Positions 11,457-60,302 of a stretch of 61,936 nt of DNA are shown piece by piece. This stretch comes from a virus: positions 1 through 61,936 of the IMG/VR virus record IMGVR_UViG_3300031974_003128; one strand, given 5' to 3'. The position numbers and the translations under genes are program-made. The notes beneath the pieces were generated by a model. The model searched no databases, was not told the origin of the DNA, and was given only the letters and a program-made list of their open reading frames with translations. Positions within the stretch are counted from its first letter, which is position 1, and each line of letters opens with the position of its first letter.

Positions 11457-14400
11457 ATGGCAAACATTCAAAGAAATTTTATAGCGGGCCGTATGAACAA
11501 AAGCCTTGATGAAAGGCTTGTTCCTAATGGAGAGTATATAGATGCTTTGAATGTTAGATTGGGTTCTACTGAAGAATCTGAGATAGGTGCAGTTGAAAAT
11601 ACAAAAGGTAACATACAGGTTACTACTTTACAGTATACAGACGGAACTCCACTGAGCACTTCTGCTAGATGTATTGGAGCTTATGAAGATGGAGCAAATG
11701 AAACCATTTATTGGTTTGTACACGATCCAGCTTTTACAGTTGGAGCTACAGGTAAACTAGATTTAATTGTTTCATACAATGTAGTTACAGGTTCTCTTAT
11801 ATACCACGTTGTTAGCATCAATGATGGTTTCGGGGGTAGCACTGTATTAAATTTCAATCCAGATTATTTAATAACAGGTATAGATAAGGTAGATGATTTA
11901 TTATTCTTTACAGATAATTTTAATCCACCAAGAGTAATTAATATAGGAAGAAACTACCCTAACCCTGTATCTAATATAGACCAGGTTACAAATGAACAAT
12001 TAAATGTAATTAAAAAACCACCAACACAATCGCCAAGTATTACATTAATTCAAACTTCTTTACAAGATTCATATTTAGAAGAAAACTTTATTTGTTTTGC
12101 ATACAGATATAAATATGCCAACGGAGAATATTCTGCTATATCACAGTTTTCTGAAGCAGCTTTTTTCCCTCAATCATTTCAATTTTCTGCAAATAGTTTT
12201 TTAAATGAAGGAATGATTAATAATAGTAACGGAGTTACTATAACTTATAATTCTGGAAGTTCTTTAGTTACAGGTATTGATTTATTATTTAAAGAAGCCA
12301 CTGATCCTACTATTAAAGTTATAGAAAGAATTGATAAAGCTAAAAATGGTTTAGCAAATAATGTTAATTACACTTTTACATTTACAAATAGCAAAATATT
12401 TACTGTTCTTCCTGAATATGAAATATTAAGATTATATGACAATGTTCCAAAGCTAGCTAAAGCTCAAACTGTAATGAACAATAGACTAGTTTATGGTAAC
12501 TATGTAGAAGGATATAATTTAATTGATATTAATAATACTGATGTTAACATTGATTTTTCAACAACATTAAATTCTACGTCTGTAGATTTAACAGACTTAA
12601 CAACAACTTTTGCTAATTCTCAATATCAAGCTTTTGGTAATACATATCCTGGTGTTAATAACAGATTACAGGTAGACTTTAATGGTAATACAGATAAGTT
12701 AAAACAGGGGGCTCAAATTAATTTTTTATTTAGATTTGAGTTTGATTCTGCATTTGATTCAAGTGGAGGTGGTTTACCTAATACAGATCAAGGTAGTACG
12801 ACAATAAGTTTTTCTTATGTTTTAACTCAAGATTATTATCAATCTGCTACACCTATATTAGATTTAGTCGCAAATGCTGATTTTAAAGCAAGAATAGGTA
12901 CTGCTACTTCTATTCAAACTGTAGCTAATGCTCAAGCTGGAAATGGTTCTACAATGACAGATCAGTTTAATGCTTCATTGCTTGCTCAACTTGGAACTAC
13001 TAGCCCACAATATGATGTTTATCAAACAGGTATTTCAGCTAGTACAGCAACACCTCCAGCAAAAGGAGAGCCTATTGCTACATCTGGCCCTAATAATGTA
13101 TTACAATTAGTTATACCAGCTGCTCAGTACGAAGAAACAGGAGTTGGTACTAACACAATTATACAGTATTATCAAATTACAGAAGCTTCAGCTTCAATTC
13201 AAGATATATCAGATACACAAAGTTTACATTCAAACAGAGGTTATGAAATTGGTATAGTATATATGGATGCATACAATAGAGCTTCAACAGCTTTAGTAAG
13301 TGACACTAATACAGTTAACATTCCTTGTTCAGCTTCTACATCAAAGAATGAAATACAAGTTACTATACCTATTACACAAAGAGCTCCAAGCTGGGCAACT
13401 AGATATAAGTTTGTTATTAAACCAGATAGAGAAAATTATGAAACTATATACTCAAGTATATTTATAAATGATCCAAACTCATTAAATACTTATTTATTAT
13501 TAGAAGGTGATAATGTTTCTAAAGTAGAAGAAGGGGATAGATTAATAGTAAAGAGAGATGCTAATGGCCCTATGCAGTCTTGTGTATACGCAACTGTATT
13601 AGAAAAAAAATCACAAGCTCCTGACTTTATAACACCTACAAGTGGTAATCCAGTTCCTGGAGGTACTTATATGAAAATGAGTGCTGAAGATTTTTCAACT
13701 ATAGAAGGAACAGATGATGTAATTAACTTAGGAACATTTGAACAAACTGCTGATAATGCTGACGAAAATCCAGTGGCAGCAAATCCTTTCTTTACAACAA
13801 GTGGTGGTATAAACACGAATTATGATGTACCTGTAGGATCAAGAATTGTAATGAAGATTGAGCAAGTAAGAAATGGAACAGGTAGTTTATGTGAACAAAG
13901 AACAAGTGTATTAGAAGAAACATTTATTGCAAGCGATAGTTTCAATGATATGTATGATTGGTTTGTTAGTGATAATGTAGCTTATGTTATTGAAAACAAT
14001 GCTACTACTGTTTCTGGCGATCCATCAGACCCTGTAGGAAATGTAGTAATTCCAAACTTAGTACCTGGTTCACCAACAGGGACACCTGAATCAAATGGAT
14101 ATGCAGGGAATAATATTGGTGATGCTGCAATGTTTACAATGTTTGGTGGTGAAACTAACAGCCCTACTACTAGCAGTGATTTACTTCTAAACAACTATTA
14201 TAGATTTTATCAAGACGGAAACGATAACAGTTATTATTTATTAGTTAGCGGAACAGCAGCATGTGGTGGAGGATCAAATCAAAGATCACTGGTAAAAGTA
14301 TCATTTACAGTTTATAGAAGAGATACATTTATTGTATTTGAAACTGAACCAGAAGAAGCTTTACCAGATGTGTGGTATGAAAATAATTTATCTTTTGGTA

Positions 14401-17400
14401 TTGATTCTGTTGGTAATCATGATGGTAATGTAATAAATCAAGATATTGCAACATCTCAACCTGGTATTGTTAATACAGGTTTCTTTAACTGTTATGCTTT
14501 TGGTAATGGTGTTGAGAGTTATAAAATAAGAGACTCTATTTCAGGTAAAGCAATCAATTTAGGTAACAGAGTATTTACAACATCTAATGTAGAATACAAA
14601 GAATCACATAGATTTGCTGATTTAACATATAGTGGTGTTTATAATGATGAAACTAACGTAAATAAACTTAACGAATTTAACCTTGGTTTATTAAACTTTA
14701 AACCATTAGAAGATTCTTATGGAGATATTGAAATATTATATGGAAGAAAAACAGATATTCTTACTCTACAAGAAGATAAAATATCTTATGTATTAGCAGG
14801 TAAAAATATACTGACAGACGCAGGCGGTGCAAACCAATTAACATCTGTTCCAGAAGTATTAGGTCAACAAGTCGCTAGAATAGAAGAGTATGGTATAAGT
14901 AATAACCCAGAAAGTTTTGCAGTATGGGGGCAAAATAAATACTTTACAGATGTAAAAAGAAGTGCAGTTGTAGAATTAATTGGTAGTTCTGCATCTGATG
15001 AACAACTTAGAATAATATCTGAAGCAGGTATGAGAAGCTGGTTTAGAGATTTATTTACTTCTGCATTTACTACACAAAAATTAGGAGGTTATGATCCATA
15101 CATGAATGAGTATGTACTTACCTCTAATACAATATTAAAACCTGAAGTAGCAGTATGTCTAGCTTGTGGTGTTTCTAAAAACATTACAGTTCCAGCAGGA
15201 GCTGAGTTTATTTATTGTGTTGATGTTACGCAAGCTGTAGGCACAGTAACAGTTGATTATGTAATACCAAGAGAAGGTGAATTAGATATAAACACTGAAT
15301 TAGCTGATGCTATGGTTTCAGAATCAGGAGTTCAATTAATTACAGAAGGAAATCTATCTACTACTTTTTACACTGTTCAGGTTATATACAATGGTATTAT
15401 ATATACATCAGGATCAGTAAACCAATCTGGATCAATTACATTTGCAAAAGATGTGCCTTCTCAAACACAAGCTACAGTTATTGTTACACAAGATTCTTCA
15501 GCTAATGATACAATAGAAATTACAGTTGGATGTCCATCTGCAGAAGAGCTAACTATTTATAGTGTATGTGTTACTGAACCAGCAGACGCAGGAAAATTTA
15601 TACACAATGAATTTGACTGGACTGACGGAACAACTACATCAGCTACACAATCAGATTTAGTTACATTTGGATCAGGAACTACTACATTTATTGTGTCACA
15701 ATATACTGTAAAAGTAGGAAGTCAAGGCACTGGTTTAATACCACCTGATTACGCTACGGTTACAATGTACTCAAACAAAATCGGATTTGATGATTTTGTA
15801 TTTAATCCTGCTACAGATAGATTTGGTTATTTAAGAACAAACACATTCTATGACAACAACATAGTTGATATTACTAGTTTATTAGCAGCCGCTGCTACTA
15901 TACCAACAAATGGAACTTTTGCTCCAACAAAATATTACTCAGACTTTACAATGCCTGCAACAACAGGTAATAAACTGTATTTAATCTGGGATTACACAGG
16001 AACTTTATCACCAACACCTCCTACTGCGCCAGTTGCTCCAACAGCACCTACACCAGTAGCACCAACTCCACCTACTCCAATAGCACCAACTCCTGTGCCA
16101 GTTCCTATTCCAACTCCTGTGCCAGCGCCAGTTCCTATTCCAACTCCGCCAACTCCGCCAACTCCGCCAACTCCAGTTGCTCCTACCCCAACACCTGTTC
16201 CGGTAGCACCAACTCCAGTTGCGCCAGTTGCTCCAACAGCACCTACTCCTACAGCTTTATACTATAGATTAAACCCTTGTGTTGGAACAGCTCAATTCTG
16301 TTACTATCAAGCAGCTGCACAGCCTGCTCCTAATCAGAGATATATTGATGGTACTACAGGTGTTTATTATTATTATAGTGGTGACGCTGGTTTAGTGAGT
16401 CCTGGTGGAACAGTTTGTTCAAACATACAAATTATTAGTGGTCAAACAGGATGTCCAGGAGCGCCTACTGCGCCTACTGCACCAACTCCAACTGCAACAT
16501 TCCAAGATGTAGAAATTAGAGAATGTTACACAACAGGAACAACATACCTTGTAAGATTACAAGGAGGGGTATTAACATCACCTACTTTATCAAGTGGGAC
16601 TGCTGTAAAAATTACTGGCTCAGCTTTCTTCCCTAATCCTGAGTTTACAGGAACTAAATGTTGGGAAATTATAGACGCATCGGCATCAAGCTATGATTCA
16701 GTCGTTTCAGTTGATGCAATAGAAAGTAGTTGTGGAAGTACAAATTGTCCTGTTACTTATGAATACAGAGAATATACAGAATGTCACACAAGTTTAACTC
16801 AAATATTTAGAAACTTTGCAGGAAGTACTTGGCCAAGTGTAATACAATACAATATAGGTGGAAATGATTTATGTTTCTCAAGCGGTGTTACAACAAGTAC
16901 AACATCGACAGTAGATATAGCAGGATTAACAACATTTAATAATTGTTATGATTGTGAAAGTCCAAACACTTGGAGTACTGCTATAGCAGGTAGTGGTGAT
17001 GGATCTGATTCAACGGCTTGTCCAAAAAGAACTGACTATGCTATATTTACAACAAGAGCTGATGTTTCATTAATACAAGCAGGAGATATAATGTATGCAA
17101 ACTCATCATTATCAACTGTATTTAATGGTGGTACATTATGGTATGGAGTATCAAATACTCAAGGATTATTAGGAGCTGATTACGCATTATTAATATTAGC
17201 AACAGGGGTTGTTCAAACTGTTGTGAATTGTAATCCTCCAACACCAAACCCTGTAGCGCCTATACCGACACCTCCATTCCCACCTACGCCTCCAACACCA
17301 CCATCGCCACCGACACCGGTTGCGCCAACTCAAGAAATTTCAGTTGTTAGATGTGGTACTGCTTCTCCAACTTATCATGTAGAAGTTATAGGAGCATCAG

Positions 17401-18368
17401 GATTAACAACAGGATTAGGTATTCAGTTTAGTTCTGGTGGATCAACTGGTGGTTGTCCAACTTTTGACACCACTCAATGTTATGAGATTACAGCTGTTAA
17501 CATTGGTTTCCATAACTGTCAAGGTAACTGGTATTTTACTAGTAGTAATTGTGGTGGATTAAGTGGATGTGTAGCGCCTACACCTCCGACTCCTCCAACA
17601 CCTACAGCGCCTACACCGACGCCTACTGCGCCTACACCCACACCGACTCCAACTCCTCCAACACCAGGGCCTACGCCTACGCCTACGCCTACACCGACGC
17701 CTACGCCTACGCCGACTCCGGTAGCACCAACACCTGTTCCGGTAGCATCGACTTATTACGCTACATTTGTTGAATGTGGTGATCCAACAGGAGCAGTGTT
17801 ACAAGTATTTGATTCTAGTCCAATTTCTAGTATATGGGTTATTGATGACGGTATATTATGTTATGAATATGTAAATAGTAGTGGAACAGGAGCTGATGGA
17901 AATATAAATAGTTATAATTTATTTACGAGCTGTATAGATTGTCAGAATCCTCCAACGCCTACGCCAGTACCTGTACCAGTACCAGTGCCTGTGCCTGTGC
18001 CTGTGCCTGTGCCTACTCCAGTGCCGACACCTACGCCGCCGACACCTACTCCGCCGACACCTACTCCAGTGCCTGTGCCTACTCCAGTGCCTGTGCCGAT
18101 ACCTACACCTACTCCAGTAGCGCCTAGCCCAAGTTGTATAGGATTAACGGGAAGTAGAAGCTCAATATCTGCGGCAGATGCTTGTAGTTCAACAAGAGTT
18201 GAAACTCATTACTATAATAGCGGAAGTTTCTGTTCAGCAACAGCATACTATGGAACAACAGCAGGATGTTCAAGCTTATATGCATCAGCAGTATATGTTA
18301 CTGTAGGGGGTAATGTTAGATTCTGGAATGGATCAGCATTTACTACATCTTGTCAAGGATGTCCATAA
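11457..18368 (+). CDS. giant tail stabilization ('muzzle') protein with five proline-rich blocks
   Basis: A protein of 2303 residues. The N-terminus (IQRNFIAGRMNKSLDERL, then PNGEYIDALNVRLG and EIGAVENTKGN) is the recognisable start of the crAss-like stabilization/muzzle family that caps the tail. After about residue 1510 it becomes modular. Pro-rich blocks dominated by TP, VP, AP and IP dipeptides lie at about 1519-1598, 1668-1681, 1926-1959, 2039-2098 and 2163-2227. They separate small Cys-containing beta domains (Cys pairs in each). The C-terminus is a last Cys-rich domain ending CQGCP. The expected family C-terminus is missing and appears instead in the gene at 22430. The Pro blocks resemble hydroxyproline glycomodules, and a prolyl hydroxylase gene follows directly. 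Block DNA is short-period repeat, so its length may vary. Confidence 0.85.
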   Translation: MANIQRNFIAGRMNKSLDERLVPNGEYIDALNVRLGSTEESEIGAVENTKGNIQVTTLQYTDGTPLSTSARCIGAYEDGANETIYWFVHDPAFTVGATGKLDLIVSYNVVTGSLIYHVVSINDGFGGSTVLNFNPDYLITGIDKVDDLLFFTDNFNPPRVINIGRNYPNPVSNIDQVTNEQLNVIKKPPTQSPSITLIQTSLQDSYLEENFICFAYRYKYANGEYSAISQFSEAAFFPQSFQFSANSFLNEGMINNSNGVTITYNSGSSLVTGIDLLFKEATDPTIKVIERIDKAKNGLANNVNYTFTFTNSKIFTVLPEYEILRLYDNVPKLAKAQTVMNNRLVYGNYVEGYNLIDINNTDVNIDFSTTLNSTSVDLTDLTTTFANSQYQAFGNTYPGVNNRLQVDFNGNTDKLKQGAQINFLFRFEFDSAFDSSGGGLPNTDQGSTTISFSYVLTQDYYQSATPILDLVANADFKARIGTATSIQTVANAQAGNGSTMTDQFNASLLAQLGTTSPQYDVYQTGISASTATPPAKGEPIATSGPNNVLQLVIPAAQYEETGVGTNTIIQYYQITEASASIQDISDTQSLHSNRGYEIGIVYMDAYNRASTALVSDTNTVNIPCSASTSKNEIQVTIPITQRAPSWATRYKFVIKPDRENYETIYSSIFINDPNSLNTYLLLEGDNVSKVEEGDRLIVKRDANGPMQSCVYATVLEKKSQAPDFITPTSGNPVPGGTYMKMSAEDFSTIEGTDDVINLGTFEQTADNADENPVAANPFFTTSGGINTNYDVPVGSRIVMKIEQVRNGTGSLCEQRTSVLEETFIASDSFNDMYDWFVSDNVAYVIENNATTVSGDPSDPVGNVVIPNLVPGSPTGTPESNGYAGNNIGDAAMFTMFGGETNSPTTSSDLLLNNYYRFYQDGNDNSYYLLVSGTAACGGGSNQRSLVKVSFTVYRRDTFIVFETEPEEALPDVWYENNLSFGIDSVGNHDGNVINQDIATSQPGIVNTGFFNCYAFGNGVESYKIRDSISGKAINLGNRVFTTSNVEYKESHRFADLTYSGVYNDETNVNKLNEFNLGLLNFKPLEDSYGDIEILYGRKTDILTLQEDKISYVLAGKNILTDAGGANQLTSVPEVLGQQVARIEEYGISNNPESFAVWGQNKYFTDVKRSAVVELIGSSASDEQLRIISEAGMRSWFRDLFTSAFTTQKLGGYDPYMNEYVLTSNTILKPEVAVCLACGVSKNITVPAGAEFIYCVDVTQAVGTVTVDYVIPREGELDINTELADAMVSESGVQLITEGNLSTTFYTVQVIYNGIIYTSGSVNQSGSITFAKDVPSQTQATVIVTQDSSANDTIEITVGCPSAEELTIYSVCVTEPADAGKFIHNEFDWTDGTTTSATQSDLVTFGSGTTTFIVSQYTVKVGSQGTGLIPPDYATVTMYSNKIGFDDFVFNPATDRFGYLRTNTFYDNNIVDITSLLAAAATIPTNGTFAPTKYYSDFTMPATTGNKLYLIWDYTGTLSPTPPTAPVAPTAPTPVAPTPPTPIAPTPVPVPIPTPVPAPVPIPTPPTPPTPPTPVAPTPTPVPVAPTPVAPVAPTAPTPTALYYRLNPCVGTAQFCYYQAAAQPAPNQRYIDGTTGVYYYYSGDAGLVSPGGTVCSNIQIISGQTGCPGAPTAPTAPTPTATFQDVEIRECYTTGTTYLVRLQGGVLTSPTLSSGTAVKITGSAFFPNPEFTGTKCWEIIDASASSYDSVVSVDAIESSCGSTNCPVTYEYREYTECHTSLTQIFRNFAGSTWPSVIQYNIGGNDLCFSSGVTTSTTSTVDIAGLTTFNNCYDCESPNTWSTAIAGSGDGSDSTACPKRTDYAIFTTRADVSLIQAGDIMYANSSLSTVFNGGTLWYGVSNTQGLLGADYALLILATGVVQTVVNCNPPTPNPVAPIPTPPFPPTPPTPPSPPTPVAPTQEISVVRCGTASPTYHVEVIGASGLTTGLGIQFSSGGSTGGCPTFDTTQCYEITAVNIGFHNCQGNWYFTSSNCGGLSGCVAPTPPTPPTPTAPTPTPTAPTPTPTPTPPTPGPTPTPTPTPTPTPTPTPVAPTPVPVASTYYATFVECGDPTGAVLQVFDSSPISSIWVIDDGILCYEYVNSSGTGADGNINSYNLFTSCIDCQNPPTPTPVPVPVPVPVPVPVPVPTPVPTPTPPTPTPPTPTPVPVPTPVPVPIPTPTPVAPSPSCIGLTGSRSSISAADACSSTRVETHYYNSGSFCSATAYYGTTAGCSSLYASAVYVTVGGNVRFWNGSAFTTSCQGCP
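16011..16255 (+). repeat. proline-codon low-complexity block 1
   Basis: Degenerate short-period repeat (CCA-ACT-CCN, GCA-CCA, GTT-CCT units) encoding alternating Pro with Thr, Ala, Val or Ile. It lies between the virion body and the first C-terminal Cys-rich domain. Confidence 0.85.
17571..17750 (+). repeat. proline-codon low-complexity block 4
   Basis: Tandem 6-base units of the CCTACG/CCGACG type encoding (TP)n with some APTP. The units are near-identical over dozens of bases, so slippage-driven length change is plausible. Confidence 0.85.
17945..18135 (+). repeat. proline-codon low-complexity block 5
   Basis: Tandem CCTGTG/CCAGTA units encoding (VP)n followed by (TP)n. The 6-base units are repeated about six times without change near 17985-18015. 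Confidence 0.85.
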
Positions 18369-18427: not shown

Positions 18428-19717
18428 ATGGAGGAAATAAAAGATTTTTTGACTCAAGAAGAGTGTCAAGAATTAATAAAATTAATAGATGCCGACCACC
18501 AAAGATCACAAGTTGTGGAAGGTGGAACTGATAGATCAGCAGTATCAGAAGTAAGAACATCAAGCACTTGTAATCTTAGTAACGAAAACCCACTTGTTTT
18601 AAAAGTACATAAAAAAATATCTGAACACCTTGGTTTAGATATAAAATATGGTGAGTCACTTCAAGGACAACTATACGAAGTTGGTCAGTTTTTTAAACCA
18701 CACCAAGATTTCTTTAGTGGTATTGCATACGATAAACATTGCAAAGCTTCAGGTAATAGAACGCATACATTTATGATTTATTTAAATGATGATTTTGAGG
18801 GCGGAGGAACACACTTTCCAACATTGAAAAAAACAATAGAGCCTGAAACAGGGAAAGGTTTATGGTGGTATAATATGGTAGATGGTGAAGTACAGAATCA
18901 ATATATGCACGAAGGTGTATCAGTTGACAGTGGTAAAAAATATATTATAACTTCTTGGTGGAGAGAGAAAGTTTGGGATGGAGCAGCTGATCAAAATCTT
19001 TATGAGCAATCTGCCAAAGAAGATATTGAAGATGCTGTAGTAGTAGAAGAGCCACAATCATATATTGTTAAAGCATCAGAGTTAATTAAAACCACTGAGG
19101 TAATTGAGTCATCAGCTAAAACATTTTCAAGCAAAGATGATTTTCCCAAGTTTACTGAACAAGGTTTTGCATTACAAAAATGTCCTGCAAATGTGTGGGG
19201 AGTTATTCAGGATGCATATAACTTATTGAAAGAAAAACTTGTAGAAGAAAACTTCGAAGGCAAAGAACAATTTATAGTAGGTGGTGGTAGTGATATATTA
19301 TCTTTTGACCACGCTCCTAATATAAGATCTTATATTCATAATGAGTTGATTGGTATACACGAAGAGTTTTCAAAAGAAAACCTTGAGCCATCTTTTGTAT
19401 ATGGTATAAGATCATATACTAAAAATGCAACTTTAACACCTCATACCGATAGAATAGCAACCCATCATATATCGTCAATTATAATTGTAGATAAAGACTT
19501 AGCTTGCGGTTGTTCAAATAAACCAAACGCTGATGATTGGCCACTAGATATTCAGGGTCATGATGGTGAATGGTATAAAGTATATGCACAACCAGGAGAT
19601 ATGATACTGTATGAATCTGCTAAATGTGAACACGGAAGAGTAGAACCTTTTGGAGGAACATTCTTTAGGAACTTTTATGTGCATTATAAATTAAAAGACT
19701 GGGAGTATAAACCATGA
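18428..19717 (+). CDS. tandem 2OG-Fe(II) oxygenase; N-terminal prolyl 4-hydroxylase domain
   Basis: A protein of 429 residues with two oxygenase domains. Domain 1 (about 1-180) has the full prolyl 4-hydroxylase set. The Fe ligands are His92-x-Asp94 (FKPHQDFF) and His161 (MHEGVSVDSGKKY). The 2-oxoglutarate-binding Lys171 lies exactly ten residues after the distal His, as in collagen P4H. The family signature GGGTHFPTL is also present. Domain 2 (about 240-429) has His339-x-Asp341 (LTPHTD), His402 (CEHGR) and a candidate 2OG-binding Arg414. It begins 59 bp after the Pro-rich tail gene and overlaps the dehydratase by 4 bp. I infer that it hydroxylates prolines in the neighbouring virion proteins. 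It needs O2, Fe and 2-oxoglutarate, fitting an aerobic host. The substrate is not proven, and a small-molecule or sugar oxygenase role remains possible. Confidence 0.88.
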   Translation: MEEIKDFLTQEECQELIKLIDADHQRSQVVEGGTDRSAVSEVRTSSTCNLSNENPLVLKVHKKISEHLGLDIKYGESLQGQLYEVGQFFKPHQDFFSGIAYDKHCKASGNRTHTFMIYLNDDFEGGGTHFPTLKKTIEPETGKGLWWYNMVDGEVQNQYMHEGVSVDSGKKYIITSWWREKVWDGAADQNLYEQSAKEDIEDAVVVEEPQSYIVKASELIKTTEVIESSAKTFSSKDDFPKFTEQGFALQKCPANVWGVIQDAYNLLKEKLVEENFEGKEQFIVGGGSDILSFDHAPNIRSYIHNELIGIHEEFSKENLEPSFVYGIRSYTKNATLTPHTDRIATHHISSIIIVDKDLACGCSNKPNADDWPLDIQGHDGEWYKVYAQPGDMILYESAKCEHGRVEPFGGTFFRNFYVHYKLKDWEYKP

Positions 19718-20730
19718 GTAAAACAATACTTGTAACAGGTGGCGCTGGTTTTATAGCTCATCACGTTATAGAAGAAATACTGGATAATACTGACTGGAAT
19801 ATAGTTAGTCTAGATAGATTAGATTTTAGTGGTAATCTAAATAGACTGCAAGAAGTAGTAGGTAGTAGAAAAGATAAGAAAAGAGTTAAAGTTATACATC
19901 ACGATTTAAAAGCTCCTCTTAATCCTCAGATTACTTCTTCTATTGGTAAGGTAAATTATGTAGCTCATTTAGCTGCAGGATCTCACGTAGATAGAAGTAT
20001 TGACTATCCAATGGAGTTTGTTCTTGATAATGTGGTTGGGACAGCAAACATATTAGAGTATGCTAAAACATTAGATATGCTAGATAAGTTTGTTTATTTT
20101 AGTACGGATGAAGTATTTGGCCCAGCTCCAGGAGAAGTTAAGTATAAGGAGAATGATAGATATAATTCTACTAATCCATATAGCGCATCTAAAGCTGGGG
20201 CAGAAGAGTTAGTTGTGGCTTTTGAAAACACTTATCAAATGCCAAACATAATAACCCATACTATGAATGTCTTTGGCGAAAGACAACATCCCGAAAAGTT
20301 TATACCAATGTGTATTAATAAAGTGTTAAAAGGTGAAAAGATTTGGATACACGGTAACAAAGAAAAAACAGAAGCCGGTAGCAGACACTACATACACGCT
20401 AAAGATGTAGCTAGTGCTTTATTGTTTTTACTAAATAATGACACACCATCTGTGCCTGATGAAACAGGAATTAAGTGTCCTAAGTATAATATTGTAGGTT
20501 CAGAAGAAATAGATAATTTATCATTAGCATTATATATATCAGCAGTGTTAAAGAAAAAATTAAAATATGAAATTATAGACTTTCATTCATCAAGACCAGG
20601 GCATGATTTACGTTATGCTTTATGTGGTGATAAAATGAAAAGTATTGGATGGACACCTAGTGAAGTTTATGATAAACTAAAACAAACTGTAAACTGGACT
20701 GTAGAAAATAAAAGATGGTTGATAGATTAA
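19714..20730 (+). CDS. rmlB: dTDP-glucose 4,6-dehydratase-like extended SDR
   Basis: A protein of 338 residues. The NAD-binding GGAGFI motif is at 9-14. The dehydratase triad signature is Thr131-Asp132-Glu133 (YFSTDEVFG), with Tyr156-x3-Lys160 (YSASK), almost the same numbering as E. coli RmlB. The TDE residues point to a 4,6-dehydratase and away from an epimerase. It would make a 4-keto-6-deoxy NDP-sugar for the two following glycosyltransferases. It is coupled by overlap to the oxygenase upstream and abuts the next gene. RmlA/C/D partners are absent, so the donor would depend partly on host enzymes. Confidence 0.88.
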   Translation: MSKTILVTGGAGFIAHHVIEEILDNTDWNIVSLDRLDFSGNLNRLQEVVGSRKDKKRVKVIHHDLKAPLNPQITSSIGKVNYVAHLAAGSHVDRSIDYPMEFVLDNVVGTANILEYAKTLDMLDKFVYFSTDEVFGPAPGEVKYKENDRYNSTNPYSASKAGAEELVVAFENTYQMPNIITHTMNVFGERQHPEKFIPMCINKVLKGEKIWIHGNKEKTEAGSRHYIHAKDVASALLFLLNNDTPSVPDETGIKCPKYNIVGSEEIDNLSLALYISAVLKKKLKYEIIDFHSSRPGHDLRYALCGDKMKSIGWTPSEVYDKLKQTVNWTVENKRWLID

Positions 20731-21552
20731 ATGAACAATTTCAACTTTCTAATTACTGCTCACTCTGATAATCCTACCAGATTAAATTTACTTTTACAAT
20801 GTATTGAATCAATAAAAAGATTTGGATATAAAGCCATAGTCGTTGATCATTTTTTTAACTACGAAGCATTTAAAGAAGCTGATGGTTTTGTATGGGTAGA
20901 AGATAATGCTATAGTAAAGCCTCAAGAGTGGAGTAAATATGATTTGTATCATGTGTGTCAAACCAATTATGAAAAGGTAGATACATTTACACCTTACGAT
21001 AGCTTTGCTCCATTTGCAATCATAGATCAATTCAACAAAGGTTATAGACTAGTTGAAGGTGATGGTGTATTTAGTATACATTATGATTGGCAACTTAAAA
21101 AAGATGTAAAAGAACTAGTAGAAAAATATCCTAACAGAGAAGGTATATTCTTTAAATATCCTCCAGATAATATGTCTTTATTTAGCAGTTGTTTTTATTT
21201 AAAGAAGTCACTTTGGAAAAAGTTTGAAAGAATACAATCTTTAGATCAGTATATGCATGAAATTAAAAAATATATGGAGTGGTTTTTTTATGATGAGTTC
21301 AAAGATGAAAATGTAGAAATATTAAAATCACACCCTAACGAATATTTTATTAATGATTTATATTATAGATCATCTTATTTAAATTTTAAATGCAATCTAT
21401 ATGGTTTAGATGATGAGGTTATATTTAATTTTAATAATTCATTTGAAACATTAGACAAAAAATTAGATTACTATTTTGTAAAAGAAGACAAGCCTCTTAA
21501 TATTCATTTACATAAAGACCATTTTAAATTTCATACATTTAGAAAAAAATGA
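20731..21552 (+). CDS. putative glycosyltransferase (GT-A type, weak)
   Basis: A protein of 273 residues. The opening NFNFLITAHSDNPTRLNLLL, then CIESIKRF and KAIVVDH, is the Rossmann-like beginning of a GT-A transferase. FFKYPPDNMSLFSSCFYLKK in the middle resembles acceptor-side segments of phage and capsule glycosyltransferases. No clean DxD is visible; ADGFVWVED near residue 54 is a candidate. The family call is weak; the context (RmlB before, a clearer GT after, ATGA overlap) supports it. Confidence 0.55.
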   Translation: MNNFNFLITAHSDNPTRLNLLLQCIESIKRFGYKAIVVDHFFNYEAFKEADGFVWVEDNAIVKPQEWSKYDLYHVCQTNYEKVDTFTPYDSFAPFAIIDQFNKGYRLVEGDGVFSIHYDWQLKKDVKELVEKYPNREGIFFKYPPDNMSLFSSCFYLKKSLWKKFERIQSLDQYMHEIKKYMEWFFYDEFKDENVEILKSHPNEYFINDLYYRSSYLNFKCNLYGLDDEVIFNFNNSFETLDKKLDYYFVKEDKPLNIHLHKDHFKFHTFRKK

Positions 21553-22382
21553 TACGATTTATTCCCAGTGCAATAGTAGATGATAGATACAGATGGATGG
21601 CTAACTTCTGGGCGTATTGTCAAAAAAAAGCTTATGGTTTACAATCATATAATAATAGTCTTGTAACTGTAGTAAAACAAAACAATACATTTAGTCCTGT
21701 ATATAATAATGTTGATTGGGATTTAAAAGGATTACCTTATTATATGTCACCTCCAATATGGGATTATGTAACTTGTCGAAACGAAAACTGTGTAGTTATA
21801 AATGTATTCTCTTCTATAAAACCACTGCTTGATTTATATGATGATGAGGACACAATAGTCTTGTGTGATATGGATATTGTTTCACTAAAAAAATATAATC
21901 ATATAATGCCAGGTGATAGTAATGTTATATGCTATGATGGCTATGAAGAATGGCATATGTTTATAGCAGATGAGTCAAAGAAAAACTATAATAAAATTAA
22001 AAAGTATTTAACTCATGAATCTGGTAAGTTTATGAACGGTGGTTTTGTTCCTATACTTGTAAAGAATAAAACTTTAAAACTTATCATTGATGATGTTATA
22101 TCTATAGCAGAACAAATTATAGAATCAGACTCAGAAGTAAACTGGAAATGGTGGGCTTGTATGACTGCATTTTCTATTGCTTGTCATAATAATAGAATTA
22201 AAATGATAGGGCAGAATAATACTTATATACCTAGTTTTAATCAGTTTGATGAACACGATCATTACTTCGCTCACTATAGTGTTGATTCTCAGTTTAATAA
22301 AGCTACATTTCCTAATCATAATATAGCAGAATATCCAAATAATTCTTTTTATGCTTTAGTTAAGGAATGGATGGCAAATTAA
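21549..22382 (+). CDS. glycosyltransferase (GT-A, DxD)
   Basis: A protein of 277 residues. The segment DTIVLCDMDIVSLKKYN has the metal-binding DxD at 107-109. FMNGGFVPIL (162-170) is the typical GT8-like NGG acceptor/donor loop, and a His-rich segment lies near the C-terminus (DEHDHYFAHY). This layout is shared with GT8-type and plant Ser/hydroxyproline transferases; I cannot say which is closer. It is the last gene of the oxygenase-dehydratase-GT-GT cassette. Transfer of a sugar to hydroxylated or threonine residues of the Pro-rich fibres is inference. Confidence 0.7.
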   Translation: MIRFIPSAIVDDRYRWMANFWAYCQKKAYGLQSYNNSLVTVVKQNNTFSPVYNNVDWDLKGLPYYMSPPIWDYVTCRNENCVVINVFSSIKPLLDLYDDEDTIVLCDMDIVSLKKYNHIMPGDSNVICYDGYEEWHMFIADESKKNYNKIKKYLTHESGKFMNGGFVPILVKNKTLKLIIDDVISIAEQIIESDSEVNWKWWACMTAFSIACHNNRIKMIGQNNTYIPSFNQFDEHDHYFAHYSVDSQFNKATFPNHNIAEYPNNSFYALVKEWMAN

Positions 22383-22429: not shown

Positions 22430-23635
22430 ATGGATTGTTTAACCTATGTAATAGTTTGTCCAGTAGGAGCAGATGGTGGTGAGTGTTCTTGGAATATACT
22501 TTGTTGTGATGGTGTTAAAAGATCAGTAACAATTCCAGAGGAAGATGAGCGAGAAGTATGTTTAGGTTACCCCTACAATATAGGTAAAACTTCTATATCA
22601 GGTTCTTCATATAGAAAAGAACCGGCAGAATCTTGTAATACTACTTGTGGTTATGCCGATCCTAGCCCACTACCTCCACCTAGTCCACCAACTCCGGTTG
22701 CACCGACACCAAGTCCTGCACCGAGTCCAACTCCAACTCCAACTCCAACTCCAACTCCTATACCTACTCCAACTCCTATACCTACTCCAACTCCAGTTCC
22801 TGCGAGTATAGTTCCACCTATACCTTCGCCAGTAACTACAGAGTATACATTAACTTATTCTCAAGCAGCTCAAGGTTGGCCATCTTTTTATTCTTTCATA
22901 CCTGAGATTATGATTGGTATGAATCAATACTTTTATTCATTTAGTGGTGGTAATTTATATCAACATAATAGTGATCTATCAAGAAATAATTTTTATGGAA
23001 CTCAATACAACTCATATATAACTACAGTGTTTAATGAGAGACCTCTTGAAAACAAACTATTTAAAACAATTAATTTAGAATCAGATCAAGCTTGGGATGT
23101 TACAATGGAAACAGATATACAAACTAATGGGTATATAGATTCAGAATGGTTTGAGAAAAAAGAAAACGCATTCTTTGCATTTATTAGACAAAGAGGAGAG
23201 ATACCTGCATTAACAGGTGAGTATGCCATGAGATCAGTAAATGGTATAGGTAAAGCATTATCTTGGAGTTTAGTCACCACTACCTTGACAGTAAACTTTT
23301 CAATCACGCCTCTAGTTAGTATAGGTAGTGAGGTGTCAGTAGGAGACTATTTATATTTCTCTGTTCCTTCATATACCACAGTAGAATTAGCAGGTCAGAT
23401 TACAAACATTGAAGTAAATCTTCCAGCAGGTATAAACAGAATTACAGTTGACGCATCCGTATCAGGAGCACAGCCTATTACAGTAGCAGATCCTTATATC
23501 TTATTTATTAAAAGTGCTGAAGCAGAATCTAATGGTTTACTTGGTCACTATGGTATATTTACCCTTACAAACAAAAGCACGCAATCAACTGAATTATTTG
23601 CCGTTGAATCGGAAATCATGAAAAGCTATCCGTAA
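22430..23635 (+). CDS. second proline-rich virion protein with detached stabilization-protein C-terminus
   Basis: A protein of 401 residues. The first 75 are Cys-rich (eight or more Cys, including CCDG and CNTTCG). Residues about 77-135 are a Pro block of SP, TP, IP and VP repeats. The rest (GWPSFYSFIPEIMIGMNQYF, then YSFSGGNLYQHN, NRP-type LENKLFKTINLE, and ENAFFAFIRQRGE) is what normally ends the stabilization/muzzle protein of Bacteroidota podoviruses. The ancestral protein thus looks split, with the hydroxylase/glycosyltransferase cassette between the halves and both halves ending or beginning in Pro-rich, Cys-rich modules. It has its own promoter at 22404. Confidence 0.75.
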   Translation: MDCLTYVIVCPVGADGGECSWNILCCDGVKRSVTIPEEDEREVCLGYPYNIGKTSISGSSYRKEPAESCNTTCGYADPSPLPPPSPPTPVAPTPSPAPSPTPTPTPTPTPIPTPTPIPTPTPVPASIVPPIPSPVTTEYTLTYSQAAQGWPSFYSFIPEIMIGMNQYFYSFSGGNLYQHNSDLSRNNFYGTQYNSYITTVFNERPLENKLFKTINLESDQAWDVTMETDIQTNGYIDSEWFEKKENAFFAFIRQRGEIPALTGEYAMRSVNGIGKALSWSLVTTTLTVNFSITPLVSIGSEVSVGDYLYFSVPSYTTVELAGQITNIEVNLPAGINRITVDASVSGAQPITVADPYILFIKSAEAESNGLLGHYGIFTLTNKSTQSTELFAVESEIMKSYP

Positions 23636-47116: not shown

Positions 47117-48712
47117 ATGGAAACATCTGGGGGGTACTCACCAAAAGATTTGCATTTTGCAGAAGATGCACGCTCAAAACTAATTAGTGGTATATCTAAA
47201 ATGGCTAAGGCTGTTAAGTCAACGCTTGGGCCAATGGGTAACACTGTACTGATAGAATCAAATCAGCATACACACGGAATCACCGTGACAAAAGATGGGG
47301 TGACAGTAGCTAAGTCTATTCAACTCCTAGACCCTGTGGAAAATTTAGCCGTACAGATGATGAGAGAGGCGGCCTCTCGAACAGCCGCCAACGCAGGGGA
47401 CGGTACAACAACTGCTATAGTTCTAACAGAAGCTTTGGTTGAGAAAGGTAGTGAGCTACTAGAAAATGCAGATAACAAACCACAGGTTCTGCGTGATATG
47501 GTCAGCGTAACTAATGAGATCGTGGCTAATCTAAAAAAGAGAAGCAAGGCTGTCTCTAAAAATAAATTACTAGATGTAGCTACTATATCAGCCAATAATG
47601 ACGCAGGGGTGGGTAAAGTAATAGCAGACACTTACAATGCAGTTGGAAAGAATGGGATAGTGACCGTTGAGAAATCACAAGGTAGTGAAACAAACTTTGA
47701 GACCACTAATGGTTTAAAAATAGATAGAGGGTACTCATCACCTCTATTTATAAATAATCAAAAGAAAGATGAGTGTATACTAGAAGATGTGTATGTGCTA
47801 GTATCCGATGCAGAGATAAATAATATACTGACAATCGAGAATGTACTAAAACCAATCATCTCAGATAATAAAAAATTACTAATAGTAGCGCCTTGTTCAC
47901 AAAACGTCATAAACACCCTAGCGGCGAATGTGATGAAGAACAACTTGAAGCTTTGCGCCATAATTCCACCCTCCTTTGGCTATAAGCAACATGAACTGAT
48001 GCAAGACATAGCTCTGTCGGTTGGTGCTACTTATTTTTCAGAAAAGACAGGAGACGACCTTAGCCTAATTACATTTGAGGATCTAGGGCGTGCTCAGAAA
48101 ATTATTGTTGGAAAGGATAGTTCTATTATTCTTAAAGACGATGACCATGTAGACAAATCCGCTATTGATGATAGAGTGAAGCAACTTAAGGATGCTCACT
48201 CTATTGCCACTAGCAAAGTGGATAAAGATTTTATCATGTCTAGAATCGCATCACTAACCGGTGGTGTAGGGGTTATCTATGTTGGGGGTAATACTGACCT
48301 TGAACAAAAAGAACTGTTCGATAGAGTTGATGATGCTGTGTGTGCTGTCCGTAGTGCCCTGGAGGAAGGAATACTTCCGGGGGGAGGACTGGCACTGTAT
48401 CAGGAGGGACTAAAACTATTGAGCTCTAAAAATTCTTCCAAAAAAATCGCTAAAGCGATTTTAGGGGGGGCGCTTAAAGAACCGCTCCTACAGATACAAT
48501 ATAACGCAGGGATTGAGTTTGTAAAAAAATATGACAAAGACAATATAGGTCTTGATGTAAAAAACAACAAAGAGGGTGATCTAATAAATATGGGGATTAT
48601 TGATCCTATGAAAGTAACAAAGCAAGCTCTGCAGAATGCTGTGAGTGTAGCGGTGACTATACTATCTACTAACGCCATAGTAACCATGGCAAGAACTTAC
48701 GAGACGCAATGA
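47117..48712 (+). CDS. groEL: GroEL-type chaperonin
   Basis: A protein of 531 residues with group I chaperonin hallmarks: LGPMGNTVLIE near 37-47, TKDGVTVAK (58-66), the ATPase motif ANAGDGTTTAIVL (91-103) and EEGILPGGGLAL near 410. Its length is close to E. coli GroEL (548), but the C-terminal Gly-Gly-Met tail is missing (it ends VTMARTYETQ). Its DNA is visibly richer in G and C than its neighbours, with runs such as GGGGGG, suggesting acquisition from another genome. It is coupled by ATGA to a lipoprotein gene, with GroES after it. It would fold capsid or fibre proteins. Confidence 0.93.
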   Translation: METSGGYSPKDLHFAEDARSKLISGISKMAKAVKSTLGPMGNTVLIESNQHTHGITVTKDGVTVAKSIQLLDPVENLAVQMMREAASRTAANAGDGTTTAIVLTEALVEKGSELLENADNKPQVLRDMVSVTNEIVANLKKRSKAVSKNKLLDVATISANNDAGVGKVIADTYNAVGKNGIVTVEKSQGSETNFETTNGLKIDRGYSSPLFINNQKKDECILEDVYVLVSDAEINNILTIENVLKPIISDNKKLLIVAPCSQNVINTLAANVMKNNLKLCAIIPPSFGYKQHELMQDIALSVGATYFSEKTGDDLSLITFEDLGRAQKIIVGKDSSIILKDDDHVDKSAIDDRVKQLKDAHSIATSKVDKDFIMSRIASLTGGVGVIYVGGNTDLEQKELFDRVDDAVCAVRSALEEGILPGGGLALYQEGLKLLSSKNSSKKIAKAILGGALKEPLLQIQYNAGIEFVKKYDKDNIGLDVKNNKEGDLINMGIIDPMKVTKQALQNAVSVAVTILSTNAIVTMARTYETQ

Positions 48713-54285: not shown

Positions 54286-55332
54286 ATGGCAACAAACAAA
54301 GTAACTACAAACGTAATTGACATGAGTGGTAACACTGGAGGACTAGTGTGGGCGCAGGGCACAAAAGCCCAAAGACCCGCAGGAGTTGCTGGTGATTTAC
54401 GTTTGAATACTACAGATTCCAGATTAGAGCTTTACAACGGAACAGATTGGAAAAGATTATCCGAAACAGCATCACCTACACCTGATTTTCAAGCAGACTT
54501 TTTGGTACTTGCCGGAGGTGGAGCTGGAGGTACTGCTAATGGTGCTGGGGGTGGTGGAGCTGGAGGGCTTCGTACTTCTTACGGTTCTACTTCTGGAGGT
54601 GGTTCTTCTGCTGAGTCTATATTAAATATGAATTTAGCAACAAACTATACAGTAACTGTTGGAGCAGGAGGAACAGCTGTTTATGGTGCAGGTGCAGGTG
54701 CATCTGGAAATAATGGGGGAGATTCAGTGTTTAGCACAATAACATCTTTAGGAGGAGGTGGTGGAGCTCACGAGACTAGTACTTCAAAAAGTGGAGGTTG
54801 TGGTGGAGGAGCAGGAACTCTAAATGTAAATTCACCTGTAGCGGGTGGAGCAGGTACTGCAAATCAAGGATTTGACGGAGGTTCAGGAGACTTTACTGGA
54901 AGCGTTAGACATGGTGGTGGAGGTGGAGGTACTGCAGCAGTTGGAGAAGACGGTAGAACAAGCAACTCAAATGGAGGTGCGGGATTAGCTGTATCTATAA
55001 CTGGTTCATCTGTCACTTATGGAGGTGGTGGAGGAGGAAATGGAAATACCAATGGAAGTGGAGCTCCTGGTGCAGGAGGAGGTGGAAATGGATACCAATA
55101 TCCTTCAACTAATTCAGGAGGCACAGCTGGAACTAATAACCTCGGTGGAGGTGGTGGTGGAGGAGCTTATCAGCAAACTGGTAAAAATGGTGGTTCTGGA
55201 GTTGTAATAGTTAGATATCCTAACACCTATACTATATCAGTAGGAGCAGGTTTAACAAGTTCAACTACTACAGATGGTAGTGATAAAGTAACAACATTCA
55301 CTGCAGGCAGTGATACAGTAAGTTTTAGTTAA
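54286..55332 (+). CDS. glycine-rich adhesin 1
   Basis: A protein of 348 residues. The head domain reads RPAGVAGDLRLNTTDSRLEL, then YNGTDWKRL. DFLVLAGGGAGGTANGAGGG follows, then a long Gly-rich region (about 80-300) with GGxGGxR turns. The end is SGVVIVRYPNTYTIS. The Gly-rich design recalls the polyglycine-II sandwich tip adhesins of T-even-like phages (S16 gp38). It is paralogous to the genes at 56163 and 57192. Confidence 0.7.
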   Translation: MATNKVTTNVIDMSGNTGGLVWAQGTKAQRPAGVAGDLRLNTTDSRLELYNGTDWKRLSETASPTPDFQADFLVLAGGGAGGTANGAGGGGAGGLRTSYGSTSGGGSSAESILNMNLATNYTVTVGAGGTAVYGAGAGASGNNGGDSVFSTITSLGGGGGAHETSTSKSGGCGGGAGTLNVNSPVAGGAGTANQGFDGGSGDFTGSVRHGGGGGGTAAVGEDGRTSNSNGGAGLAVSITGSSVTYGGGGGGNGNTNGSGAPGAGGGGNGYQYPSTNSGGTAGTNNLGGGGGGGAYQQTGKNGGSGVVIVRYPNTYTISVGAGLTSSTTTDGSDKVTTFTAGSDTVSFS

Positions 55333-55333
55333 T

Positions 55334-56161
55334 ATGGCACATTACGCATTTTTAAATAACGACTCTACAACACAAACTCTAAGAGAGGAGCTTTCTCTTT
55401 TAATGATTGATATGGGTAATCTTACTTCTATTGAAGAGCCAGATACAGCTGCCATTGAAGCTAAGCAAGTAGAGATAGACGCAAAGCAGCAAGAAATAGA
55501 TAATGCACTTTGTGTAGTAACAGGAGTTATAACAGGAGTGCCTGAGACTTATATGGAGGCTGCAAGCGATGAAACGATAGAGCAGGAAATAAAAGATTTA
55601 GAAGCTAGTAGGGTTGACCCTGAAACACACGAAGCTTTACCAATAGAAGAGGTTGCAGTAATAGATGCGCAGATTCAAGCTAAGGTTGAAGAGCTTAACG
55701 CTTTACCACCAGTAGAAGTAGATAATACAGAATACTGGGAAGGGTATTATGGAAAAAGCGGACTATGTAAAAGAACTTCTTATAACACATTAGGTGGTGT
55801 TCACCAAAACGGAGGCACACCTTTTAGAAAAAATTATGCAGGCATTGGTATGATATACGACCCTGTAAGAGATGCGTTTTATGCACCGCAGCCATTTGCA
55901 AGTTGGACTTTAAATGAAGATACTTGTTTATGGGAATGCCCTGTAGAAAAACCTGAGGGTGAATACTGGTGGAAAGATGATACTGGGGAGTGGGTAGATT
56001 ATAAATACTACTCTCAGCCTTTATATGAAACATCACCATCACCAAGTGCAAACTGGAATACAAATATAGGTCAATGGGAGTACCCTAAGCCAGTTCCAGA
56101 TATTGAAAATTCGTATCTTTGGAGATGGGATGAAGAAACACAAGATTGGATAGTTATTTAA
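55334..56161 (+). CDS. fibre-associated protein with APQP/SW repeats (275 aa)
   Basis: The N-terminal 130 residues are an acidic coiled coil. The rest (YAGIGMIYDPVRDAFYAPQP, then FASWTLNEDTCLWECP, later SYLWRWDEETQDWIVI) is related to the 121-residue protein at 60334 (AGIGFTYDDVNDVFVAPQPY, then PSWSLDENHDW). This domain is common in marine phages near fibres. One- or two-base gaps to both neighbouring adhesins. Confidence 0.6.
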   Translation: MAHYAFLNNDSTTQTLREELSLLMIDMGNLTSIEEPDTAAIEAKQVEIDAKQQEIDNALCVVTGVITGVPETYMEAASDETIEQEIKDLEASRVDPETHEALPIEEVAVIDAQIQAKVEELNALPPVEVDNTEYWEGYYGKSGLCKRTSYNTLGGVHQNGGTPFRKNYAGIGMIYDPVRDAFYAPQPFASWTLNEDTCLWECPVEKPEGEYWWKDDTGEWVDYKYYSQPLYETSPSPSANWNTNIGQWEYPKPVPDIENSYLWRWDEETQDWIVI

Positions 56162-56162
56162 T

Positions 56163-57188
56163 ATGGCAACAACAAAAATAATACCTGAAGTACTTGATTT
56201 AAACTCAGCAACGTCTGATAAAGGTTTAAAAATGCCTAGCGGCACTATCTTTAATAGGCCTACTGGCGTCACAGGTTCTATGAGAAACAATACGAGTGAA
56301 TCTTCAAATGGAGGAGCTTCAGCAATGGAATATTATAATGGAACTGAATGGCAAAAAATTTCTAATGATGCTCCGCCTGTTTTTATGGATTACCTTGTAG
56401 TTGCTGGTGGGGGAACTGGAGGAAGTTATTATAATGGTAATGCTGGTCAAGAAGCTGGAGGTGGGGGTGCAGGAGGAGTGCGTACATCTTATGGTAGTAT
56501 ATCAGGAGGTGGATGTTCAGCAGAAACAATTTTACAAATATTTCCAGGAACATACACAATTACAGTAGGTGCAGGAGGTGCGGTTACTAATACTGAGGCA
56601 AGAAGCGGAAACCCTTCATCTATTGCTGACGCAACAACTACATTAGTATCTTGTACTGGCGGTGGAAGAGGTGGAGGAAATAGGTCATCTACACATCAAG
56701 TAGATTCTCAGGGCGGTGGTTCTGGTGGAGGTGGAGGTTGTGTAAATTTAACAGGAAAAGCTGGAACAGCATGTGAGGGGTTTGCTGGTTCAAATAAAAC
56801 AGGGTCATCTGGTGGTGCTGGAGGTGGAGCAGGAGAAGCTCCAACAAGTTATAATGGAGGAGATGGAATTGAAGTGTCTATAACAGGTACAGCAACATAC
56901 TACGGTGGAGGTGGTGGAGGTTCAGATAATGCTGGAATAGATGTAGGTACTGGAGGTCAAGGTGGAGGTGGTGCTGGAAACGGTGGTTCAGCAACTGCAA
57001 ATACTGGAGGTGGTAGTGGTGGTGCAGCGCCAGGTGCAGTTGCAGCAAGCGGAGGTTCAGGAGTAGTAATATTAAGATTACCTACAAGTAAATACTCTGG
57101 AAACACTACAGGTTCGCCAACTGTAACTACCGATGGAACAGATACAATATTAAAATTTACAGGAAGCGGAACATACGTACATTCATAA
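56163..57188 (+). CDS. glycine-rich adhesin 2
   Basis: A protein of 341 residues with the same plan as adhesin 1: RPTGVTGSMRNNTSESSNGG, then YNGTEWQKIS, then DYLVVAGGGTGGSYYNGNAG, a long Gly-rich body, and an end SGVVILRLPTSKYSGNTTGS that is nearly repeated in adhesin 3. The start and end DNA segments are similar between copies, which would allow recombination between them. Confidence 0.7.
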   Translation: MATTKIIPEVLDLNSATSDKGLKMPSGTIFNRPTGVTGSMRNNTSESSNGGASAMEYYNGTEWQKISNDAPPVFMDYLVVAGGGTGGSYYNGNAGQEAGGGGAGGVRTSYGSISGGGCSAETILQIFPGTYTITVGAGGAVTNTEARSGNPSSIADATTTLVSCTGGGRGGGNRSSTHQVDSQGGGSGGGGGCVNLTGKAGTACEGFAGSNKTGSSGGAGGGAGEAPTSYNGGDGIEVSITGTATYYGGGGGGSDNAGIDVGTGGQGGGGAGNGGSATANTGGGSGGAAPGAVAASGGSGVVILRLPTSKYSGNTTGSPTVTTDGTDTILKFTGSGTYVHS

Positions 57189-57191
57189 ATT

Positions 57192-60100: not shown

Positions 60101-60302
60101 CGGAGGTGGTGGTGGAGGAGGTTCTGCAGGTATTTTAGCAGGTTCAGTAGGAACAAATGGTTTAGGTGGTTCAGGTATTGTTGTTTTAAGAATGAATACA
60201 TCAGATTATTCAGGAACTACAACAGGTTCACCAACCGTAACTACTGACGGAGATTATACAATACTAACATATACAGGTAGTGGAACTTACGTACATTCGT
60301 AA
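57192..60302 (+). CDS. large glycine-rich adhesin 3 with lectin-like repeats
   Basis: A protein of 1036 residues. After the paralogous head (RPTSPSTGEWRYNTDDNKIE, then FYDGADWLTI) come about six copies of a lectin-like unit (starting FSIVTYTGNGGTQSITGVGF, then QPDFVWIK; similar at about 195, 290, 405, 535 and 635). These are of the DUF7483/concanavalin-like type seen in marine phages. From about 740 the Gly-rich body and C-terminus of adhesins 1 and 2 return (ending SGIVVLRMNTSDYSGTTTGS). It looks like an adhesin enlarged by insertion of the lectin repeats, probably the main receptor-binding protein. Confidence 0.75.
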   Translation: MATTKITSPELFDLASLDSALQLPSGTTAQRPTSPSTGEWRYNTDDNKIEFYDGADWLTIQDEDIPPVPSENFSIVTYTGNGGTQSITGVGFQPDFVWIKDYSQARNHIVFDSNRGVQKRLHTNTTDTESTLTNGLSSFDADGFSIGSNVNVNANAAGYVAWCWKVNGGTTVTNTDGSVNSTVQVNQKTGTSIIQYSASGSDLTYGHGLSQEPNFILVKARTWASAWFAWHKESGGAQYGGYFNDTSAVSAGNSQVGTPNATTIGANHPGTRNSGDYIVYAFHDVAGYSKFGTYTGSSTNQYASVFVSTGFKPAFLIIRKVTGTGVEWVMFDNKRANGGFLGEFQLHNSSSSEQYKNSGNPAYVLFTEDGFEINGNPQSVNGNGVTYIYMAFAADPTTTSPTLSDSFNIVTYNGDSNTYRDITGYEFAPTLVWAKNRNSGNWHTWKDRIRSTTPYSFLSSNLSDASNGSGANDAISEFLPDGWESSTNWNGSSAGLTNQPGLTYVGWGWKANNDSTTRDTSGTIPAIITANQAAGFSIVKYTGTGTNSQTLPHGLGAKPDFVVIKQRNAISQWVGFTDATGTFSFFYMNSSQALTAYPSMSWDATYLNLNSGGDQNGAGDQHVAYFFRSIAGFSKIGSYTGNGANQSITGLGFQPDYVMIKGATSADNWFVNDSLRGPSYTVYPNLANTETNPSADLNLTSFDSDGFSVSSSPGVNRNGDTFMYMAFKATDQPAQSIAAGEMAFLGVGGGGAAGIYYGPGGGAGGLRTSYGTVSGRNSAPESNITLAAGTYTITVGAGGGPSQTTATSPSSRSGVNTTIAGPSMTTITCNGGGGGASGGGAGTAFLTGATGGSGGGGWTTFGAGAGTANQGYQGGDGTNLGGYSEVNGGGGGAGQAGETGTSAVGAGNGGNGLLNTITARIAYYAGGGGAGGPESGAGDGTFGIGGLGGGGNGGYSTPGFENGQNAAPNTGGGGGGGSAGILAGSVGTNGLGGSGIVVLRMNTSDYSGTTTGSPTVTTDGDYTILTYTGSGTYVHS

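Follow-up and report, generated by a model that had tools for sequence, protein, structure and literature searches.

Why does a bacteriophage place a prolyl hydroxylase and a glycosyltransferase (GT) between genes for proline-rich tail proteins? This question is raised by IMG/VR virus record IMGVR_UViG_3300031974_003128, whose 61,936 nucleotides (nt) are referred to below as the window; relatives are cited by locus labels (L-numbers). At positions 18428-22382, four tightly packed genes on the plus strand (18428-19717, 19714-20730, 20731-21552, and 21549-22382) lie between two pieces of the muzzle, a tail-tip protein of crAss-like phages. The original prediction for this DNA, made from the letters alone, had described the four open reading frames (ORFs) as overlapping or abutting, and we found them joined, in order, by a 4-nt overlap, an abutment, and a second 4-nt overlap. 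The best reading of this cassette, which we hold to be probable on the basis of sequences and structural models, is that the phage encodes the hydroxylation of prolines and the subsequent O-glycosylation of its own tail proteins.

The first gene encodes an oxygenase of 429 amino acids (aa), which comprises two 2-oxoglutarate (2OG) oxygenase domains, the second of which had been missed by the original prediction. The N-terminal domain (residues 1-184, positions 18428-18979) matches PF13640 (E 1.4e-14) and carries H92, D94, H161, and K171, i.e. the HxD...H iron triad and the lysine for 2OG. The claim that this is a complete prolyl 4-hydroxylase (P4H) site is borne out, as all four residues are present and invariant across 24 relatives. 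When residues 1-184 were compared with PDB sequences, nine out of nine matches were peptidyl P4Hs, among them those of B. anthracis (3e-25), human C-P4H alpha-2 (1e-19), Chlamydomonas (1e-13), and PBCV-1 (2e-13). The AlphaFold2 model of the oxygenase (mean predicted local distance difference test (pLDDT) score 84.9) found its best fold match in 3GZE, the Chlamydomonas P4H with bound (Ser-Pro)5 (Z 23.8, root-mean-square deviation 2.1 A, 178 residues). By sequence and modelled fold, the first domain is of the peptidyl P4H kind and a predicted hydroxylase of peptidyl proline. The second domain (residues ~240-425, positions 19145-19702) has an HxD...H motif of its own (HxD 339/341, H402, with R404), of which the H/D/H columns are conserved among relatives. 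It is 31% identical to a cyanophage 2OG oxygenase over residues 240-427 and matches phrog_2954, while no match was obtained in Pfam or the PDB. In L256, the domain matching Pfam is located at the C-terminal rather than the N-terminal end. We also observed that the PHROGs matching 2OG oxygenase domains here (phrog_2954, phrog_3531, phrog_2297, and phrog_274) are labelled ferrochelatase or DNA endonuclease; these labels look wrong. In one relative, an extra, weak PhyH-like oxygenase gene is located within the cassette (L104, 11661-12212).

The last gene of the cassette (21549-22382) had been proposed for comparison with hydroxyproline O-arabinosyltransferases (HPATs), and it was indeed the HPAT family PF23452, and no other Pfam family, that its product matched (E 5.5e-8; 33 bits against a cut-off of 23.9). 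Of 28 diverse members tested, an HPAT match at E<=0.01 was obtained for 18 and a match to a different Pfam GT family for none; none of 14 control genomes matched the HPAT profile. Conserved motifs of these HPAT-like proteins include the DxD at residues 107-109 (D107 and D109 invariant), YNGG, WW, and HYSxD. The AlphaFold2 model (pLDDT 89.8) adopts a GT-A fold, and its nearest folds are retaining GTs such as glycogenin, LgtC, UGGT, and the Skp1 galactosyltransferase. Searching PDB sequences with the HPAT profile returned nothing meaningful, and no solved HPAT was among the fold matches listed. Since a tblastn search of 50,697 phage records with two divergent forms of the protein gave no match, no cultured model was found. 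In one contig (L016, 10001-10828), the HPAT and P4H genes seem to be broken by frameshifts, which may be due to sequencing error.

The phage is a marine crAss-like one with relatives among the Flavobacterium elemo and Cellulophaga phages, and the cassette belongs to its virion module; the terminase is 46% and a ring-like protein 41% identical to those of elemo. Its assignment to a Crassvirales type is based on PF25729, on PF25731 in homologues, on portal, ring, and terminase genes, and on structural PHROGs. The original prediction had described the flanking genes as coding for tail proteins rich in TP, VP, AP, and SP repeats. They are Pro-rich on both sides as claimed, but their sequences identify them as what appears to be a single crAss-like muzzle that is split into two genes, with the cassette between the parts. 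The upstream gene (11457-18368) encodes a virion protein of 2303 aa (phrog_14478, virion structural protein), the N-part of the muzzle, with Pro-rich blocks in its C-terminal region; its homologues in L196 and L158 match the muzzle profile, PF25731 (crAss_MUZ), at its beginning. Downstream, the C-part (22430-23635; 401 aa), of which the N-terminal half is Pro-rich, matches PF25729 (crAss_MUZ_C, E 1.4e-19). The muzzle of phi-crAss001 (gp44) is one protein that forms a hexamer of ~1 MDa at the tail tip (PMC10172136). A split muzzle with variable genes inserted between its parts was observed as a trait of the environmental clade of this phage, and the elemo phages have only structural and hypothetical genes in the same stretch.

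Five Pro-rich blocks, all encoded on the plus strand, flank the cassette: block 1 with 39 P in 89 aa (16011-16277), block 2 (17235-17369), block 3 with TPTPTP (17577-17786), block 4 with VPVPVP and TPTP (17949-18131), and, beyond the cassette, block 5 with TP, IP, SP, and VP (22622-22882). On either side (16011-18131 and 22622-22882), the residue before P is T, V, A, or S. Only two of the 36 window ORFs of at least 150 aa attain 9 P per 40 aa, and both attain 21-22. The codons for Pro, Thr, Val, and Ala in the blocks are mixed, and short DNA tandem repeats with periods of 6-30 are present. Collagen-like G-x-y repeats, as another P4H substrate, were not found in the window.

In order to follow up the proposed search for P4H genes beside Pro-rich virion proteins in other phages, we compared 81 distinct muzzle loci, counting a locus as Pro-rich if the virion proteins of the slot contained at least 12 P in 40 aa. 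A P4H gene was found in 27 of them, and all 27 have Pro-rich blocks. Among loci with neither P4H nor GT60, only one of 45 is Pro-rich (L187, borderline at 12). Thresholds from 10 to 15 gave the same pattern (26 or 27 of 27 versus 0 or 1 of 45), and the Fisher p value for the association, with kinship among the muzzle loci ignored, is 1e-14. HPAT is present in 21 of the 27 P4H loci and in none of the remaining ones. A number of sister phages whose muzzles are Pro-rich have neither P4H nor HPAT and carry a strong GT60 gene in the same slot (PF11397, 4e-68), and other P4H loci contain O-fucosyltransferase (O-FucT)-like or GT32-like genes. Because HPAT, GT60, O-FucT-like, and GT32-like genes are exchanged in it, the slot looks like a variable tail-glycosylation island. 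A variant cassette in L119 (2723-16649) and L115 encodes a protein with a run of Thr (TTTTTT) together with a P4H, a GT that is weakly HPAT-like, and a fusion of O-FucT and carbamoyltransferase, the last observed for the same gene in L116.

Phages without any crAss gene that carry the same set of genes provide stronger evidence than the crAss-like loci. In a siphovirus with HK97-type head genes, the tape measure gene is followed by one for a TP/VP/AP-rich protein of 1167 aa and then by P4H and HPAT. L226 shows the order long-tail-fibre protein, PTPSPTPS protein, P4H, HPAT, GT60, and in L262, T4-like baseplate genes stand with an AP-repeat protein, P4H, and HPAT. L123 and L015 are further phages of this kind with the same association. 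Overall, a P4H is found no more than 6 kb away from 49 of the 58 distinct HPAT domains, and a 4-nt stop-start overlap occurs in 30 loci, some of which represent the same contig repeated. By comparison, the P4Hs of Erwinia Y3, Salmonella Sen-NF, Microcystis, and Synechococcus phages are single-domain proteins, and beside them we found no HPAT and no annotated Pro-rich tail gene. The bacterial HPAT relatives that we found are fusions only. Gammaproteobacterial metagenome-assembled genomes (MAGs) encode a Cupin_8/JmjC-type hydroxylase joined to HPAT (seen directly in L203, 7971-9920; also L204 and L205), and in Planctomycetaceae MAGs HPAT is fused to GT60 (L206, 7025-8812; L207, 3405-5798, the latter locus also with an FkbM methyltransferase). 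A partnership of HPAT with a hydroxylase, or with a second peptide GT, is therefore seen at the level of sequence outside the phages as well. In another phage contig (L249, 11921-15497), we noted a run of paralogous small proteins with alike starts (MIKLIDLLENKILVPRRS...).

The second gene of the cassette (19714-20730) had been described as an RmlB-like dehydratase with TDE and YxxxK motifs. In agreement with this, its product contains the extended short-chain dehydrogenase/reductase motifs STDEVFG and YSASK, matches PF16363 (8e-48), and has dTDP-glucose 4,6-dehydratases as its nearest PDB entries (best matches 3e-48). Judged from its sequence, this putative dTDP-glucose 4,6-dehydratase suggests a 6-deoxyhexose route, if it is part of this pathway; some of the relatives do not have the gene. 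The third gene (20731-21552) encodes a protein of 273 aa, labelled GTU, that is possibly a GT. It had no Pfam match and no meaningful PHROG match, and its slot is often taken in relatives by a different unassigned gene (cluster D616). Of the two GT-like genes originally proposed, the one at 21549 is thus a GT of the HPAT family, and the one at 20731 is a possible GT. No gene pointing to arabinose was found, in an analysis that did not search systematically for an arabinose donor pathway.

What the computations show, namely which families and motifs the genes contain, how closely the oxygenase fits the algal fold with bound (Ser-Pro)5, and how the genes are linked across genomes, leads us to infer a phage-encoded cytoplasmic line that would modify the phage's own tail. 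Its P4H domain would hydroxylate prolines in the TP, VP, AP, and SP blocks of the two muzzle proteins as its substrates. On the resulting hydroxyproline, the HPAT-like enzyme, a predicted retaining GT-A enzyme whose reading frame overlaps that of its neighbour in many relatives, would then place the first sugar. The glycan might be supplied or extended by the dehydratase and the product of the 20731 gene, and in relatives by GT60, GT32-like, or O-FucT-like genes. The outcome would be extended, sugar-coated polyproline segments that form a glycosylated brush at the tail tip and might serve in host binding or protection, with adsorption, protease resistance, and escape from host defences as candidate functions. 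The idea of a plant-like modified virion put forward in the original prediction is supported: both of the computable checks that it had proposed, the comparison of the 21549 GT with HPATs and the search for co-occurrence with Pro-rich proteins, came out in its favour. The likeness to plants holds at family level only, and no gene found points to arabinose.

Several results weigh against hydroxyproline glycosylation of the tail. The match to the HPAT profile is distant (~200 aa, weak), and homology alone does not decide which residue is the acceptor, since GT95, the HPAT family, is related to GT96, a Ser-galactosyltransferase family (PMC8012813). P4H changes only about four times on the muzzle tree, so that the crAss-like loci are not phylogenetically independent and the association among them rests on few events; the two to five independent pairs nearly always go in the same direction but are too few, and the sign test is not significant. 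Some GT60-only sisters are Pro-rich without any P4H, and a few phage HPAT homologues have no P4H nearby. On two long fragments (63 and 90 kb), P4H, HPAT, and GT60 are all encoded and no Pro-rich ORF was detected; these may be incomplete genomes.

Some of these points would suit a mucin-like modification, in which the GTs act on Thr or Ser of the TP and SP blocks and hydroxylation merely stiffens the polyproline helix or is a separate matter. Most often, P follows T (39% of P in loci with P4H and HPAT, 56% in GT60-only loci), and the TP-richer, Pro/Thr-rich blocks of the GT60-only loci, which have no P4H, are consistent with direct Thr modification in that branch. A polypeptide GlcNAc transferase of T. 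cruzi also belongs to GT60 (PMC6939170), and the kinship of GT95 with GT96 points the same way. For the cassette of the window we nevertheless regard this explanation as unlikely, given that HPAT keeps company with P4H (49 of 58), with no exception in the 81 crAss-like loci, and that stretches made of VP or AP only, such as the pure AP repeat of L262, offer neither Thr nor Ser. It is less probable still that oxygenase and GT modify molecules of the host, such as EF-Tu or components of the cell surface, and reached the tail module by chance insertion. The closest structures include two P4Hs that modify EF-Tu, those of B. anthracis and P. putida, the two fragments mentioned above have no detected Pro-rich proteins, and single-domain P4Hs of other phages are located among metabolic genes; the tandem-domain P4H, however, is a neighbour of Pro-rich tail genes even across unrelated phages, and it is missing where the blocks are missing. 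We give very little credence to the view that the blocks are ordinary low-complexity linkers grown by slippage of DNA repeats, with the enzymes modifying other residues or a glycan precursor. Short tandem repeats do underlie the blocks, and the specificity of the second 2OG domain is not fixed by Pfam or the PDB, but the codons are mixed, the nearest relatives of the first domain are all peptidyl P4Hs, and the co-occurrence is near-perfect.

Hydroxyproline glycosylation by phages had no earlier report in the open-licence PubMed Central (PMC) literature that we covered, and no such module is annotated as a gene among the 50,697 phage records. What would be new is a phage module for virion proteins, as the chemistry itself is already known from plants, algae, and protists. 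We lean towards the broader view that O-glycosylation of hydroxyproline, so characteristic of the walls of plants and algae, also exists in phages as a mobile module with which proteins of the tail tip are coated, and that the HPAT family has prokaryotic and viral members, with its hydroxylase-HPAT and GT60-HPAT fusions perhaps near the origin of the family. If this holds, a plant-like hydroxyproline-rich glycoprotein would be made at a phage tail tip in the bacterial cytoplasm without endoplasmic reticulum or Golgi. The module would provide a source of compact, soluble enzymes for hydroxyproline glycosylation and a clue to the origin of the HPAT family. It would also represent a new kind of surface variation in environmental crAss-like phages, in which HPAT, GT60, O-FucT, and GT32 genes are exchanged for one another next to a common set of proteins.

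Elsewhere in the window, we observed a chaperonin of the Cpn60/GroEL family (47117-48712; PF00118, E 2e-51) and a GroES-like protein (321-884; phrog_13932). Positions 54286-60302 encode three virion-type proteins with Gly_rich_2 domains, one of them with DUF7483; a phrog_19943-type protein as found there is also encoded upstream of the Pro-rich gene in the siphovirus L107. A promoter scan gave a result no better than shuffles.

Among the closest known systems is the O-arabinosylation of hydroxyproline in extensins, arabinogalactan proteins, and peptide hormones of plants and algae by P4H and HPAT (GT95). Like this system, the phage combines a P4H of the (Ser-Pro)n-binding type and a GT of the PF23452 family with XP-repeat proteins. 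It differs in its predicted virion-protein substrates, its soluble enzymes, its tandem 2OG domains, and the lack of a gene found to point to arabinose. In the Skp1 pathway, a cytoplasmic P4H (PhyA) is likewise followed by a GT acting on hydroxyproline, Gnt1 of GT60, and then by more GTs (PMC6939170); in Toxoplasma and Dictyostelium, Gnt1 transfers GlcNAc onto the hydroxyproline of Skp1 (PMC6939170). A GT60 gene occupies the same slot in sister phages and is present as a third gene in L226 and L249. Unlike Skp1, which is modified at a single proline, the phage proteins present long XP blocks, and the window holds an HPAT-like gene rather than GT60. The P4Hs of PBCV-1 (5C5T) and of bacteria (3ITQ and 5IAX) belong to the same hydroxylase family and share the active site of the phage enzyme, but they have a single domain and are not known here as linked to an HPAT-like GT. 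Finally, the muzzle of phi-crAss001 (gp44; PMC10172136) shares the PF25731 and PF25729 domains at the equivalent position of the tail module, whereas in the present phage these domains are split between genes, carry Pro-rich extensions, and enclose the modification cassette.

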